Positions 1,887-48,904 of a DNA stretch of 64,000 nt are shown piece after piece; within the stretch, counting starts at the first letter, position 1; the number at the start of each line of letters is the position of its first letter. This DNA comes from Bacteroidota bacterium. Lineage in GTDB: Bacteria; Bacteroidota; Bacteroidia; Chitinophagales; Chitinophagaceae. The DNA is taken from contig JAPLEJ010000050.1 in the NCBI GenBank assembly GCA_026391435.1, positions 38,912 through 102,911 of the forward strand, given 5' to 3'. A program made the position numbers and the translations under genes. The notes under the pieces are model-generated. The model did no database searches. It was not told where the DNA came from and saw nothing but the letters and a program-made list of their open reading frames with translations.

Positions 1887-3017
1887 ATGCGACCTATTTT
1901 ATTCATTGATCGAGATGGCGTTATTTTAGAAGAACCAAAGACAGATTTTCAAATTGATCATATTGAAAAAACGAGTTTTGTTCCTGGGGTCATTACGAAT
2001 TTGCATAAGATTGCAACTGAACTAGGTTACTATAAAGTGATGGTCACCAACCAAGACGGTTTAGGTACGGCATCTTATCCAACTGAACAATTTGAGCCCT
2101 TACAACAATTAATGTTGAGAACCTTAGCAGCAGAAGGGTTTGTATTTGATGAAATTAAAATTGATACTACTTTCGCTAAAGACAATGCGCCTAATAGGAA
2201 GCCAGGTACGGGACTTGTCCAACACTTATTAAATAACGAGTCATTTGATATCGCCAACTCTTTTGTCATTGGAGACAGGTGGAGTGATATTGCGCTTGCA
2301 AAAAACATAGGTTGTAAAGCTATTTATCTAAAATCAGATCTTCATACATTAACAGAGGATCAAGAAAAGGAACTTAGAAGTACCATTGTTTTTGAAACCA
2401 ATAGTTGGTCTGGTATTTATTCATTTCTTAAATTAGGATTACGACTGGTAAAACACGAACGCAATACCAAAGAGACAAAAATTAAAATCGCCCTCAATAT
2501 GGATGGAAGGGGGCATGCTAATATTCATACAGGACTTGGATTTTTTGATCATATGTTAGAACAAATTGCTAGACATGGATCAATTGATTTAGACATTCAG
2601 TGCGATGGTGATTTACATATTGACGAACACCACACCATTGAAGATGTGGGTATTGCTTTAGGGGAGGCTTTTGCAAAAGGGTTATCAGATAAAAGAGGAA
2701 TGGAACGATATGGCTATGCTTTACCAATGGATGAGGCCGAGGCCAAAGTATTGATTGATTTTGGGGGTCGTAATTGGTTGGTTTGGGACGCCAATTTTAC
2801 AAGAGAGAAGGTAGGGGAAATGCCTACTGAAATGTTTTTCCATTTTTTCAAATCCTTCAGTGATGCAGCCAAAGCCAATCTAAATATTAGCTGTAAGGGA
2901 GAAAATGAACACCATAAAATAGAGGCCATTTTTAAAGCTTTCGCTAAGGCCATCAAAATGGCGGTGCATCGCAATCCCACTAATGACCAATTGCCTAGTA
3001 CCAAGGGGGTTTTATAG
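1887..3017 (+). CDS. hisB: Bifunctional histidinol-phosphatase / imidazoleglycerol-phosphate dehydratase
   Basis: N-terminal HAD motif FIDRDGVI; C-terminal IGPD motifs (GFFDHMLEQIARHG, DEHHTIEDVGIALG). Confidence 0.95.
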   Translation: MRPILFIDRDGVILEEPKTDFQIDHIEKTSFVPGVITNLHKIATELGYYKVMVTNQDGLGTASYPTEQFEPLQQLMLRTLAAEGFVFDEIKIDTTFAKDNAPNRKPGTGLVQHLLNNESFDIANSFVIGDRWSDIALAKNIGCKAIYLKSDLHTLTEDQEKELRSTIVFETNSWSGIYSFLKLGLRLVKHERNTKETKIKIALNMDGRGHANIHTGLGFFDHMLEQIARHGSIDLDIQCDGDLHIDEHHTIEDVGIALGEAFAKGLSDKRGMERYGYALPMDEAEAKVLIDFGGRNWLVWDANFTREKVGEMPTEMFFHFFKSFSDAAKANLNISCKGENEHHKIEAIFKAFAKAIKMAVHRNPTNDQLPSTKGVL

Positions 3018-3054
3018 GTTTTGGACTAACAACTGATAGGTTATCTGGCCTTTA

Positions 3055-3086
3055 TTTGGATTTATAATTTCATTGTCTTAAATTTG
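3055..3086 (+). promoter_or_regulatory. Bacteroidota-type promoter for trp operon: TTTG (3055-3058) - N20 - TAAATTTG (3079-3086)
   Basis: Match to TTTG-N19-21-TAnnTTTG; ends 7 nt before the trpL ATG. Confidence 0.75.
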
Positions 3087-3093
3087 CGATACG

Positions 3094-3150
3094 ATGATAA
3101 AAACAAACAATATTTGGTGGTGGCATACAAACTCCGTTGGGGTACTGTAG
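3094..3150 (+). CDS. trpL: trp operon leader peptide MIKTNNIWWWHTNSVGVL*
   Basis: Manual translation: 18 codons with three tandem TGG codons (3115-3123), 83 nt upstream of trpE and followed by a terminator hairpin. Absent from the ORF track because of its length. Confidence 0.9.
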   Translation: MIKTNNIWWWHTNSVGVL

Positions 3151-3180
3151 TGACATATCTATATTGTCAAATGATACATG

Positions 3181-3214
3181 AACCCTAACAGCAATGTTGG
3201 GGTTTATTTTTTTT
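3181..3214 (+). terminator. trp attenuator terminator
   Basis: AACCCTAACA (3181-3190) / TGTTGGGGTT (3195-3204) stem with GCAA loop, then TATTTTTTTT. The 5' arm also pairs with GTTGGGGT at 3136-3143 inside trpL. Confidence 0.88.
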
Positions 3215-3233: not shown

Positions 3234-4646
3234 ATGAAAAAGGTTATGATACAAACGGAGGTCACTAAAATGTTGGCCGATACTTTTACACCTGTAGGTA
3301 TTTACTTACGGTTAAGAGATCGTTTTCGTGACACTATATTACTAGAAAGCACCGATTCGCATGCTGCCGAAAATAGCTATTCCTTTATTGGAGTGAATGC
3401 GATTGGAGGTATCGAAATTTCATCTTTGAATCAAATTGAATTTAAGTATCCCAATCAGGAGCCAGAAAAAGAGACCATCAAAAATGTACACGATGCACCT
3501 GATCGTATTTGGTCCTATATGCAACAATATGAAATGCAAAGTACCAATATTAAAGAGGCTTCCTTTGGGCAAGGTTTGTATGGGTATACGACTTATGACG
3601 CCATTCCTTTTTTTGATACTATTGAATTTAAAAAAGAAGAAAACATTATTCCATTAATGCGATATAGATTATATCAATATGTTATTGCATTTAATCACTT
3701 TAAAGATGAAATATTTATTTGTGAAAATAAATTAGCTGGAGTGGATTCTGAATATGAAGCACTATTGTCTTATATCAAAAGTAAAGATGTACCCCAATAT
3801 CCTTTTTTTATAAAAGGAACCGAAACGGTGAATCAGACTGACGAGGAGTTTAAAAAAGTAGTAGAACAAGGTATCAAGCATTGTATGAGAGGGGACGTGT
3901 TTCAAATTGTATTGAGCAGGCGTTTTCAGCAATCTTTTCAAGGCGATGAATTCAATGTATATCGCACTTTAAGAAATATTAATCCTTCTCCTTATTTATT
4001 CTTTTTTGATTATGGTGATTATAAATTAATGGGGTCATCTCCTGAGGCACAAATTATTATTAAAAAGGGTAAAGCAGTAGTGCACCCAATAGCGGGTACA
4101 TTTAAAAGAAGTGGGGATGAGGCAGTTGATGCAATAATGACACAAAAATTACTGGATGATCCTAAAGAAAACGCCGAACATGTGATGTTGGTTGATTTAG
4201 CTCGAAATGATTTAAGTAGGGTTTGTAGCGAAGTCCGTGTTAAGCAATATCGCCAAGTACACTATTATAGTCATGTGATACATTTAGTGAGTGAAGTGGA
4301 AGGTACGGTTGCAGAGAATGCCAATCCTTTTCAGTTGGTTTCAAAAACTTTTCCAGCAGGAACCTTAAGCGGTGCTCCTAAATTTAAAGCCATGCAATTG
4401 ATTGATGCCATGGAACCTACTAAACGCTCTTATTATGGAGGTTGTATTGGATTTGTTGGTTTTGATGGTAGTTGTAATCAGGCCATTATGATTCGTACTT
4501 TTTTAAGTCAACAAAATACCCTTACATATCAAGCAGGTGCTGGAGTGGTCGCAGCGAGCGTTCCAGAAAATGAATTACAGGAAGTAAATAATAAATTAAA
4601 TGCATTAAAAACTGCCATATTGATGGCTGAAAAAATTCATGCATAA
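3234..4646 (+). CDS. trpE: Anthranilate synthase component I
   Basis: Chorismate-binding motifs (PIAGTFKRSGDE, DDPKENAEHVMLVDLARNDLSRV, AGTLSGAPKFKAMQLID). Confidence 0.96.
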   Translation: MKKVMIQTEVTKMLADTFTPVGIYLRLRDRFRDTILLESTDSHAAENSYSFIGVNAIGGIEISSLNQIEFKYPNQEPEKETIKNVHDAPDRIWSYMQQYEMQSTNIKEASFGQGLYGYTTYDAIPFFDTIEFKKEENIIPLMRYRLYQYVIAFNHFKDEIFICENKLAGVDSEYEALLSYIKSKDVPQYPFFIKGTETVNQTDEEFKKVVEQGIKHCMRGDVFQIVLSRRFQQSFQGDEFNVYRTLRNINPSPYLFFFDYGDYKLMGSSPEAQIIIKKGKAVVHPIAGTFKRSGDEAVDAIMTQKLLDDPKENAEHVMLVDLARNDLSRVCSEVRVKQYRQVHYYSHVIHLVSEVEGTVAENANPFQLVSKTFPAGTLSGAPKFKAMQLIDAMEPTKRSYYGGCIGFVGFDGSCNQAIMIRTFLSQQNTLTYQAGAGVVAASVPENELQEVNNKLNALKTAILMAEKIHA

Positions 4647-46541: not shown

Positions 46542-46674
46542 TAGATCTTCTACATGCTTAAATTGCTGGGTCACTCTATTCAATAATGTTCAGGTAAATT
46601 AAGCTAGCCAATTGCTAATGAAAGAGTTATAAAACAAATATTTGTTAGTTTTGGACGAATTTAAAGCAAACTAT

Positions 46675-46705
46675 TTTGTCAATTAGGCTATTTAGATTAA
46701 CTTTG
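46675..46705 (+). promoter_or_regulatory. Bacteroidota-type promoter for pheA/aro operon: TTTG (46675-46678) - N19 - TAACTTTG (46698-46705)
   Basis: Consensus match ending 5 nt before the leader ATG. Confidence 0.78.
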
Positions 46706-46710
46706 ACCCG

Positions 46711-46797
46711 ATGAAAGCAAATATTAACAATTGGTTTTACTTTTTCTTTTATTTCTACTTTAACCAAAGTAGCCGGGTAGTATTTGTAAAAGCTTAA
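46711..46797 (+). CDS. Phe/Tyr-rich leader peptide MKANINNWFYFFFYFYFNQSSRVVFVKA*
   Basis: Manual translation: 28 codons with the run FYFFFYFYF, upstream of pheA and followed by a terminator. Not in the ORF track. Confidence 0.9.
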   Translation: MKANINNWFYFFFYFYFNQSSRVVFVKA

Positions 46798-46816
46798 ACG
46801 AAATAACTAAATATAC

Positions 46817-46846
46817 AATCCCGGCCCACCAGTCGGGATTTTTTTT
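46817..46846 (+). terminator. pheA-operon attenuator terminator
   Basis: AATCCCGGC-CCACCA-GTCGGGATT (one G-T wobble) then T6. CCCGGC (46820-46825) can instead pair with GCCGGG (46772-46777) in the leader ORF. Confidence 0.87.
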
Positions 46847-46897: not shown

Positions 46898-47734
46898 ATG
46901 AATAAAAAGGTGACGATACAAGGATACGAAGGGAGCTTCCACCAAGTGGCAGCCATGCATTTTTTCGGAAAAAATGTAGAAGTAATTACTTGTGATACTT
47001 TTAGAGAAGTGGTAAAAATAGGCGCTGATCTCAAATTGTCAGATGGCGCAGTGATGGCCATCGAAAATTCAATCGCTGGAAGTATTTTACCCAACTATAA
47101 TTTACTGCAAAAAAGTAATCTACAAGTGATAGGGGAAGTGTATTTATCCATCAGTCAAAATTTATTAACCTATCCAGGTGTCAAGCTAGAAGATATCAAG
47201 GAAGTGCATAGCCATCCTATGGCAATTTTACAATGTTTGGATTATTTAGAAAAATACAATTGGAAATTAGTTGAATCAGAGGATACGGCATTAAGTGCAA
47301 AATTGGTACACCAACATAAATACAAACATGTTGCAGCCATCGCTAGTAAATTAGCTGCACAGTTGTATGATTTGAATATAGTATCTCCTGACATACATAC
47401 TTTAAAAAATAATATTACTCGTTTTTTAGTGATGGCGCCCACGGCGGCTAAAATTAAAGTAGCAGATGCAAATAAAGGGTCTATCTATTTCCAAACGGAT
47501 CATTCTAGAGGTATCCTTTCCAAAGTGTTGGCTAAAATCGCGCAAGGAAAAGTAAACTTGAGCAAGTTGCAAAGTATGCCTATTCCTGGAAGCACATTTA
47601 AATATGGGTTTTATGCAGATTTGGAATTTGAGAACAACAAACAAATGGGAAAAGTATTGGAGGAAATAAAATCCCTTACGAATAGTTTGAAAATATTTGG
47701 TATGTATAAAAAAGGTAAAGTAGTTAAAGGTTAA
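46898..47734 (+). CDS. pheA: Prephenate dehydratase
   Basis: VTIQGYEGSFHQVAAMHFFG, AIENSIAGSILPNYNLL, NITRFLVMA; ACT-like C-terminus. Confidence 0.93.
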   Translation: MNKKVTIQGYEGSFHQVAAMHFFGKNVEVITCDTFREVVKIGADLKLSDGAVMAIENSIAGSILPNYNLLQKSNLQVIGEVYLSISQNLLTYPGVKLEDIKEVHSHPMAILQCLDYLEKYNWKLVESEDTALSAKLVHQHKYKHVAAIASKLAAQLYDLNIVSPDIHTLKNNITRFLVMAPTAAKIKVADANKGSIYFQTDHSRGILSKVLAKIAQGKVNLSKLQSMPIPGSTFKYGFYADLEFENNKQMGKVLEEIKSLTNSLKIFGMYKKGKVVKG

Positions 47735-47735
47735 T

Positions 47736-48904
47736 ATGGAATTTAAAGTATCACATAGATTAGAGGGAATTGGAGAATATTATTTTTCATCCAAACTACG
47801 CGAAATTGATGAACTCAATAAAGCGGGTAAGGGTATTATTAATTTAGGCATCGGAAGCCCCGATTTGCCACCACATCCTGAAGTGATCAAAGTATTACAA
47901 GAAGAGGCTAGTAAGGACAATGTCCATGCCTATCAATCTTATAAAGGTTCTCCCATTTTAAGGGAAGCCGTAGCAGAGTGGTATAAGAAGTATTTTAAAG
48001 TAGGAGATATAAATCCTGCTACTGAAGTACTTCCCTTACTAGGAAGCAAGGAAGGGATCATGCATATATGTATGACCTATTTAAACGAAGGCGATCAGGC
48101 GTTAATCCCTAATCCTGGTTATCCGACGTATACAAGTGCAGTTAAGTTAGCGGGCGGCACTCCGCTTTATTATGCATTAACTGCCGAAAACAGTTGGGCA
48201 CCTGACTTTGAAAATTTAGAAAAATCAGATTTATCAAAAGTCAAGTTGATGTGGGTGAATTATCCGCATATGCCAACAGGTCAAAGTCCTACTAAGCTAA
48301 GGAATTGTTTGAAAAATTAGTAGCCTTTGGAAGGAAGCATCAAATATTGATTTGTCATGACAATCCTTATTCCTTTATTTTAAATGATAAACCCGAAAGT
48401 TTATTGTCTATTGAAGGGGCGAAAGAGGTAGTGATCGAATTAAACTCTCTGAGTAAAAGTCAAAATATGGCAGGATGGAGAGTGGGCATGCTCATAGCAG
48501 CCGAGGACCGAATCAATGAAATACTTAGGTTTAAATCCAACATGGACAGTGGCATGTTTTTGCCTGTTCAATTAGCAGCGGCCAAGGCATTAAGCTTGGA
48601 TCAAAGTTGGTATGACTCCGTGAATAAAATATATACAGCACGACGTGAAAAAGTATTCGAATTATTAGATGTTTTAAAATGTGTTTATTCAAAACAACAA
48701 GTGGGAATGTTTGTATGGGCAAAAATTCCAACTACTTACAAAGATGGGTATGCGTTAAGTGATAAGGTATTGTATGAAGCGAATGTTTTTATCACACCTG
48801 GAGACATATTTGGTTCTGCGGGTAACAATTACATCCGAGTAAGTTTGTGTGGTTCATTAGAAAAATTTACTGAAGCAATTAAAAAAATAAAAGCATGCGT
48901 TTAG
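47736..48904 (+). pseudogene. Class I/II aminotransferase split by a frameshift near 48290-48320 (ORFs 47736-48320 and 48305-48904)
   Basis: First ORF ends NYPHMPTGQSPTKLRNCLKN*; second continues the fold (ELFEKLVAFGRKHQILICHDNPYSF...SLSKSQNMAGWRVG with PLP Lys). The frames differ by 1 nt. Confidence 0.8.

Follow-up and report, generated by a model that had tools for sequence, protein, structure and literature searches.

Two leaders in the window (the whole stretch of 64,000 nt analysed here), trpL ahead of trpE and a Phe/Tyr leader ahead of pheA, are very probably ribosome-mediated transcription attenuators whose RNAs begin at or within about 3 nt of the start codon. We base this on computed anatomy, conservation, covariation and a fold switch. 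In both units a run of cognate codons (WWW before trpE, nine F/Y codons before pheA) is followed by a terminator, an anatomy which recurs with HTHHH before hisG and is kept in relatives. A previous reading of the DNA from its letters alone (here the sequence-only reading) had taken both units for near-leaderless attenuators. Their anatomy agrees with ribosome-mediated attenuation, and they are near-leaderless if the usual spacing between box and transcription start site (TSS) applies. The positions it gave for both -7 boxes and ATGs are exact, and a single terminator follows each leader as it had described (Table 1).

Genomic setting of the leaders

The window is derived from a metagenome-assembled genome (MAG) of 1.9 Mb that is 84% complete. 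PheA of the window shows 96% identity to an uncultured Bacteroidetes MAG and about 83-88% identity to records labelled Sediminibacterium or Chitinophagaceae. These identities place the host within the Chitinophagaceae, as a Sediminibacterium-like organism.

The trp operon lies directly next to the end of hisB at 3017. No strong terminator was found between hisB and trpL (3017-3094), so that his-operon transcripts might run on into the trp attenuator. hisG and trpE are near each other in several relatives too. A glucose/sorbosone dehydrogenase-like gene and a cytochrome c gene (182-1875) are located directly upstream of hisB in the same direction, apparently within the his operon. Between pheA and tyrA, the aminotransferase (47736-48904) is represented by two overlapping ORFs of 194 and 199 aa matching two halves of Aminotran_1_2, which would reflect either a frameshift or an assembly error.

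Table 1. Features of the trp and Phe/Tyr leaders in the window
Feature	Position	Strand	Basis or remark
trp promoter -33 element TTTG	3055..3058	+	20 nt upstream of -7 box
trp promoter -7 box TAAATTTG	3079..3086	+	kept at gap 5-7 from ATG in half of relatives
Predicted trp TSS, 5′UTR 2-3 nt	3091..3092	+	inferred from published Flavobacterium box-to-TSS spacing
trpL leader ORF MIKTNNIWWWHTNSVGVL-stop	3094..3150	+	ATG 7 nt after -7 box; stop codon 3148-3150; WWW core kept in 26 leaders
Three Trp control codons	3115..3123	+	leader sequence
trp antiterminator 5′ arm, GTTGGGGT plus CTGTA, overlaps stop codon	3136..3149	+	duplex test, folding, covariation
trp antiterminator 3′ arm, overlaps terminator 5′ arm	3175..3189	+	duplex test, folding
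trp intrinsic terminator and T-run	3178..3214	+	hairpin 3178-3207, then T-run
trpE, first structural gene of trp operon	3234..4646	+	gene annotation
phe promoter -33 element TTTG	46675..46678	+	19 nt upstream of -7 box
phe promoter -7 box TAACTTTG	46698..46705	+	gap 4-9 in 70/73 phe leaders with recognisable box
Predicted phe TSS, 5′UTR 0-1 nt	46710..46711	+	inferred from published Flavobacterium box-to-TSS spacing
Phe/Tyr leader ORF MKANINNWFYFFFYFYFNQSSRVVFVKA-stop	46711..46797	+	ATG 5 nt after -7 box; stop codon 46795-46797; kept in relatives
Nine Phe/Tyr control codons	46735..46761	+	leader sequence
P1 hairpin CTACTTTaaccAAAGTAG, partly last control codons, abuts antiterminator	46755..46772	+	covariation, folding
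phe antiterminator 5′ arm, GCCGGG plus TAGTATTTGT	46772..46788	+	duplex test, folding, covariation
phe antiterminator 3′ side, overlaps terminator 5′ arm	46808..46825	+	duplex test
phe intrinsic terminator and T-run	46817..46846	+	hairpin 46817-46840, then T-run
pheA (prephenate dehydratase), first structural gene	46898..47734	+	gene annotation

Transcription start and conservation of the box-to-ATG gap

In F. johnsoniae, the TSS of probable promoters is reported to follow the -7 element at a distance of 4-5 nt (PMC6847099), and for F. psychrophilum a box at -12 to -5 is given (PMC9723704). Since the published TSS lies 4-5 nt past the -7 box, 5′UTRs of only 2-3 nt (trp) and 0-1 nt (phe) are predicted; a gap of 4 nt would put the TSS on the ATG itself. 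The sequence-only reading had additionally pointed to the missing Shine-Dalgarno sites, but their absence is no evidence for leaderlessness here, because Bacteroidota mRNAs are reported to lack such sites generally (PMC6847099).

A third case is provided by the his operon of this genome, which is located 3.2 kb ahead of the window: TAATTTCG is followed after 4 nt by the leader MNLNNHTHHHFLTNR-stop, whose HTHHH run lies ahead of hisG and is followed by a terminator. For comparison, upstream regions of trpE, pheA and hisG were collected from relatives, giving 26 trp, 78 distinct phe and 30 distinct his leaders. A box is recognisable in 73 of the 78 phe leaders, with a gap of 4-9 nt in 70 of these 73 and of exactly 7 nt in 44. 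All 30 distinct his leaders show gaps of 4-9 nt. The trp leaders vary more: the gap is 5-7 nt in 13 of 26, about six more have gaps of 6-8 nt by way of a variant box or another start, and six lie at 11-23 nt, gaps that are found in several Sediminibacterium trpLs. Within other Chitinophagaceae genera, trpL gaps of 4-7 nt and of about 17-22 nt both occur (read by eye). Relatives also possess an ilv leader (e.g. MQNKKNIVITSTNTVINMIAIAIIIITALQGGGLN) with a gap of 15-19 nt, the tail antiterminator of which looks alike by eye. In the families sampled across the class Bacteroidia, most genomes that have hisG carry a His-rich leader ahead of it, in most cases followed by a terminator. The gap of these leaders ranges from 4 to 35 nt; it is at most 9 nt in 15 of 39 (three with variant boxes), 10-15 nt in about ten and larger in 14.

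Ordinary genes at the compared loci show a gap of 4-9 nt at 8 of about 49 box-bearing starts (about 16%), with a dip at 10-15 nt; loci retrieved by the box pattern were left out of this count. As gap counts are phylogenetically correlated, the contrast between leaders and ordinary genes is suggestive only. The combination of promoter and ATG is by itself near chance frequency: the -33/-7/ATG motif is seen three times in the window against 1.45 expected, and box-N3-8-ATG occurs 222 times in the genome against 170 times in a reversed control. What does exceed chance is the persistence of the spacing in dozens of related species and in three operons. A lineage-wide leaderless attenuator class, as suggested by the sequence-only reading, does not hold in any strict form, given the ilv gaps of 15-19 nt, the trpL gaps of 11-23 nt, the mere 15 of 39 Bacteroidia hisG leaders with short gaps and the roughly 16% of ordinary genes. 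Judging from the compared sequences, the near-leaderless start is rather a common option in the clade which is nearly fixed in phe and his leaders.

The layout also extends beyond the two operons of the window, an outcome whose opposite the sequence-only reading had named as speaking against itself: it is present in the his operon of this genome and in dozens of relatives. Of the operons proposed there for a wider search (ilv, leu, his and thr), his thus shows the layout, the ilv leader of relatives has the longer gap given above, and no leader was found directly before either thrA or ilvD in this genome; in most relatives examined, other genes precede these two within their clusters. When the whole genome was scanned for box-N3-9-ATG with a T-run after it, the leaders of trp, phe and his were recovered, and the pattern matched no more often than it did in the reversed control. 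The scan gave no fourth unit of this kind, the other loci inspected from it being without a further attenuator by the filter used. A loose order-wide pattern containing TGGTGG was dropped as too noisy. At two of the compared loci, the region ahead of a 2-isopropylmalate synthase-like gene has a TAAATTTG box and, no more than about 12 nt past it, a terminator-like hairpin (AAACGGGC..GCCCGTTT); a leader ORF is missing between the two. Such a box-hairpin arrangement might possibly represent a different regulator of the leu operon.

Antiterminator position and covariation

The complementarity between leader tail and terminator 5′ arm exceeds that of shuffled sequences at p ≤ 0.01 in 75 of 77 phe leaders and at p ≤ 0.05 in 19 of 26 trp leaders and nearly all his leaders; class-wide, 17 of 30 his leaders pass at p ≤ 0.05. 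According to the sequence-only reading, the antiterminator arm is coded by the last sense codons of the leader. For trp and phe the arm is indeed located in the leader tail, starting 13 nt before the stop and extending across the stop codon in trp, and spanning 24 to 7 nt before the stop in phe. The his arm departs from this description, as it crosses the stop, reaching from 3-5 nt before to about 18 nt past it. A duplex test confined to the his ORF yielded no arm, and extension past the stop codon revealed it. Nearly all leaders have 9-16 nt between the last control codon and the antiterminator arm, and the position of the arm relative to the stop is more variable than this distance, also class-wide. 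A constant codon-to-arm distance of this kind would be needed if the switch were read out by the leading edge of a stalled ribosome.

Covariation was evaluated for helices defined from one member per set, a procedure which favours the helices over slid controls. In the phe antiterminator core, 99.4% of cells are paired and two pairs have changed on both sides; the extension contributes four pairs and the P1 hairpin 12 cells. Five cells covary in the trp antiterminator arm, the trp extension being uninformative, and 25 cells in the his terminator. The his antiterminator core is 98.5% paired without two-sided compensatory changes and is therefore more weakly supported than those of trp and phe. 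P1 is possibly an RNA polymerase pause hairpin. In nine more distant phe leaders, the conserved tail reads RPGMLLL... or nearly so and not SRVVFAKA, which suggests that the arm may have been re-coded in another frame.

Fold switch

Equilibrium folding of full transcripts was dropped as a test of states, since the terminator is always favoured and the states are not discriminated. Instead, 134 leaders were folded with a ribosome mask and with the terminator 3′ arm not yet made. With the ribosome stalled at the control codons, nearly all of the 134 leaders form the antiterminator, with a median P(antiterminator) of 0.98-1.00. With the ribosome at the stop codon this median drops to 0.01 in trp and 0.00 in his. 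Phe behaves differently: with the ribosome at the stop and an upstream footprint of 13-16 nt, the GC core of the antiterminator stays unmasked (P 0.98), and a footprint of about 22 nt upstream is needed for the antiterminator to be lost. The sequence-only reading had cautioned that masking of the phe arm may be partial, a caution that holds in part, although its distance of 17 nt between arm and stop has to be corrected to 7 nt.

Without a ribosome, the antiterminator is formed in 96% of the 78 phe leaders, whereas about half of the trp and his leaders have a P(antiterminator) under 0.5; the three leaders from this genome all form it. Consensus folding of trp additionally shows a conserved hairpin of the control codons with sequence past the stop, situated around the arm, which competes with the antiterminator and could protect the arm. 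As a control, the E. coli trp leader was subjected to the same procedure. In the established segment numbering of that leader, it formed 1:2 without a ribosome (P(antiterminator) 0.00), mostly 2:3 with the ribosome at the second Trp codon and neither of the two at the stop, as established.

Proposed mechanism and alternative explanations

From these data we infer transcription start, translation, stalling and regulation in vivo as follows. RNA polymerase would start 4-5 nt past the -7 box, the AUG would emerge at the very 5′ end and a ribosome could load at once. If charged tRNA is scarce, this ribosome would stall on the control codons with its leading edge just short of the antiterminator 5′ arm; the arm, lying free 9-16 nt past the last control codon, would pair with the terminator 5′ half and transcription would go on. 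If charged tRNA is plentiful, the ribosome would travel over the arm to the stop, and with the arm covered the terminator would form. For phe, the switch at the stop codon would hinge on the assumed footprint. The his operon of the same genome would follow the same design.

The leaders could also be ordinary leader-peptide attenuators with a normal short 5′UTR, transcribed from TSSs upstream of the boxes or from upstream promoters, i.e. by his-operon read-through in the case of trp and from an alternative TAnnTTGY box (46673-46680) in the case of phe. The TSSs of both leaders are predicted ones, hisB ends at 3017 with no strong terminator found before trpL, and the TAnnTTGY readable ahead of the phe leader is like the SM5 motif of F. 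psychrophilum. We nevertheless consider this explanation improbable. Species differ in the flanking sequence but share the TAnnTTTG box and its spacing of 4-9 nt, TAnnTTGY overlaps the -33 element and is absent from many phe leaders, and the his leader shows the same spacing although it cannot use his-operon read-through. It is easier to imagine, although we lean against it, that the short gap is not specific to attenuators, the clade being rich in near-leaderless promoters and the leaders having drawn this state without functional need. Both the short gaps among ordinary starts, with the dip at 10-15 nt, and the longer ones of ilv leaders in relatives and of most hisG leaders across the Bacteroidia would be in line with this. 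On the other hand, nearly all phe and his leaders of the family keep the gap over large divergence, compared to about 16% of other genes and to the 5.5% of leaderless mRNAs reported for F. psychrophilum (PMC9723704), a comparison that is likewise suggestive only.

With respect to the switch itself, the leaders might follow the three-segment logic of E. coli. There, untranslated RNA terminates because a protector hairpin keeps the arm sequestered, and a stalled ribosome sets the arm free by melting this hairpin. The conserved hairpin around the trp arm and the low ribosome-free P(antiterminator) in about half of the trp and his leaders are consistent with such a protector, yet the ribosome-free antiterminator of 96% of the phe leaders and of all three leaders of this genome, as opposed to the 0.00 obtained for E. 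coli trp, makes this logic somewhat unlikely. The opposite possibility is a two-state, 'default-on' class of Bacteroidota attenuators with the arm in the leader tail and no effective protector, in which untranslated RNA would read through. A leaderless start would then have been selected, because termination needs a ribosome on every transcript from its first nucleotides. As a whole we hold this reading to be unlikely; in the folding models default-on logic as such would be possible, best for phe.

Relation to known systems

Regulation by leader-peptide attenuation is known as such, and the leaders described here share with E. coli trpL, pheL and hisL the repeated cognate codons in a leader ORF, the mutually exclusive antiterminator and terminator and, as predicted here, the stall-dependent switch; in the folding test, trp and his also behave like the E. 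coli leader under stall and at the stop. They differ from E. coli trp, where the antiterminator 5′ arm (segment 2) follows the leader stop and segment 1 protects, in that the arm is placed within the ORF tail or extends over the stop, and an effective protector is absent from the phe leaders. The 5′UTR of the E. coli trp leader measures 26 nt. A comparative study from 2010 by Lopatovskaya et al. (cited in PMC4833913) may also list Bacteroidetes attenuators.

Leaderless leaders are known from Streptomyces and Sinorhizobium. In Streptomyces lividans (PMC8079986), leaderless leader ORFs with control codons (trpL1, ilvL, leuL, thrL and others) precede biosynthesis or tRNA-ligase genes and were mapped by RNA-seq; phylum and promoter type are different, and several of these attenuators lack a clear terminator. 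The attenuator RNA of Sinorhizobium meliloti, rnTrpL, likewise begins directly at the trpL ATG (PMC7298713), but this organism is an Alphaproteobacterium, and its leader RNA and peptide have roles in trans. Within the same phylum, signs of attenuation and 5′ elements upstream of amino-acid operons, including pheA and hisG, are reported for Flavobacterium psychrophilum, some of the elements being conserved in other Flavobacteriaceae (PMC9723704). The main text of that report is silent on near-leaderless leaders and on the position of the antiterminator. As far as the papers considered here show, the near-leaderless state in this phylum, its near-fixation in phe and his and the location of the arm within the leader tail or over its stop would be new.

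No convincing Rfam family for the trp and phe leaders of the window was found at gathering thresholds or at E ≤ 10. Bacteroid-trp (RF01692; PMC2864571) is a candidate cis-regulatory RNA of Bacteroidetes named for trp, and its covariance model gave no match to the trp leader of the window at the gathering threshold or at E ≤ 10. Phe_leader (RF01859), also a Phe leader, matches the phe leader weakly (32.0 bits, E 0.0012), below the gathering score of 55; the run of Phe codons and the terminator appear to account for this match.

The near-leaderless design in trp, phe and his offers a concrete case for the question of how Bacteroidota ribosomes, which operate without Shine-Dalgarno sites, load fast enough for an attenuator that is coupled to transcription. 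It also yields a recognition rule, namely TAnnTTTG, 4-9 nt, a start codon, control codons, an arm about 9-16 nt past the last control codon and a terminator. This rule may serve to recognise leaders which are too short for most ORF callers and, in the window, are not recognised by Rfam.
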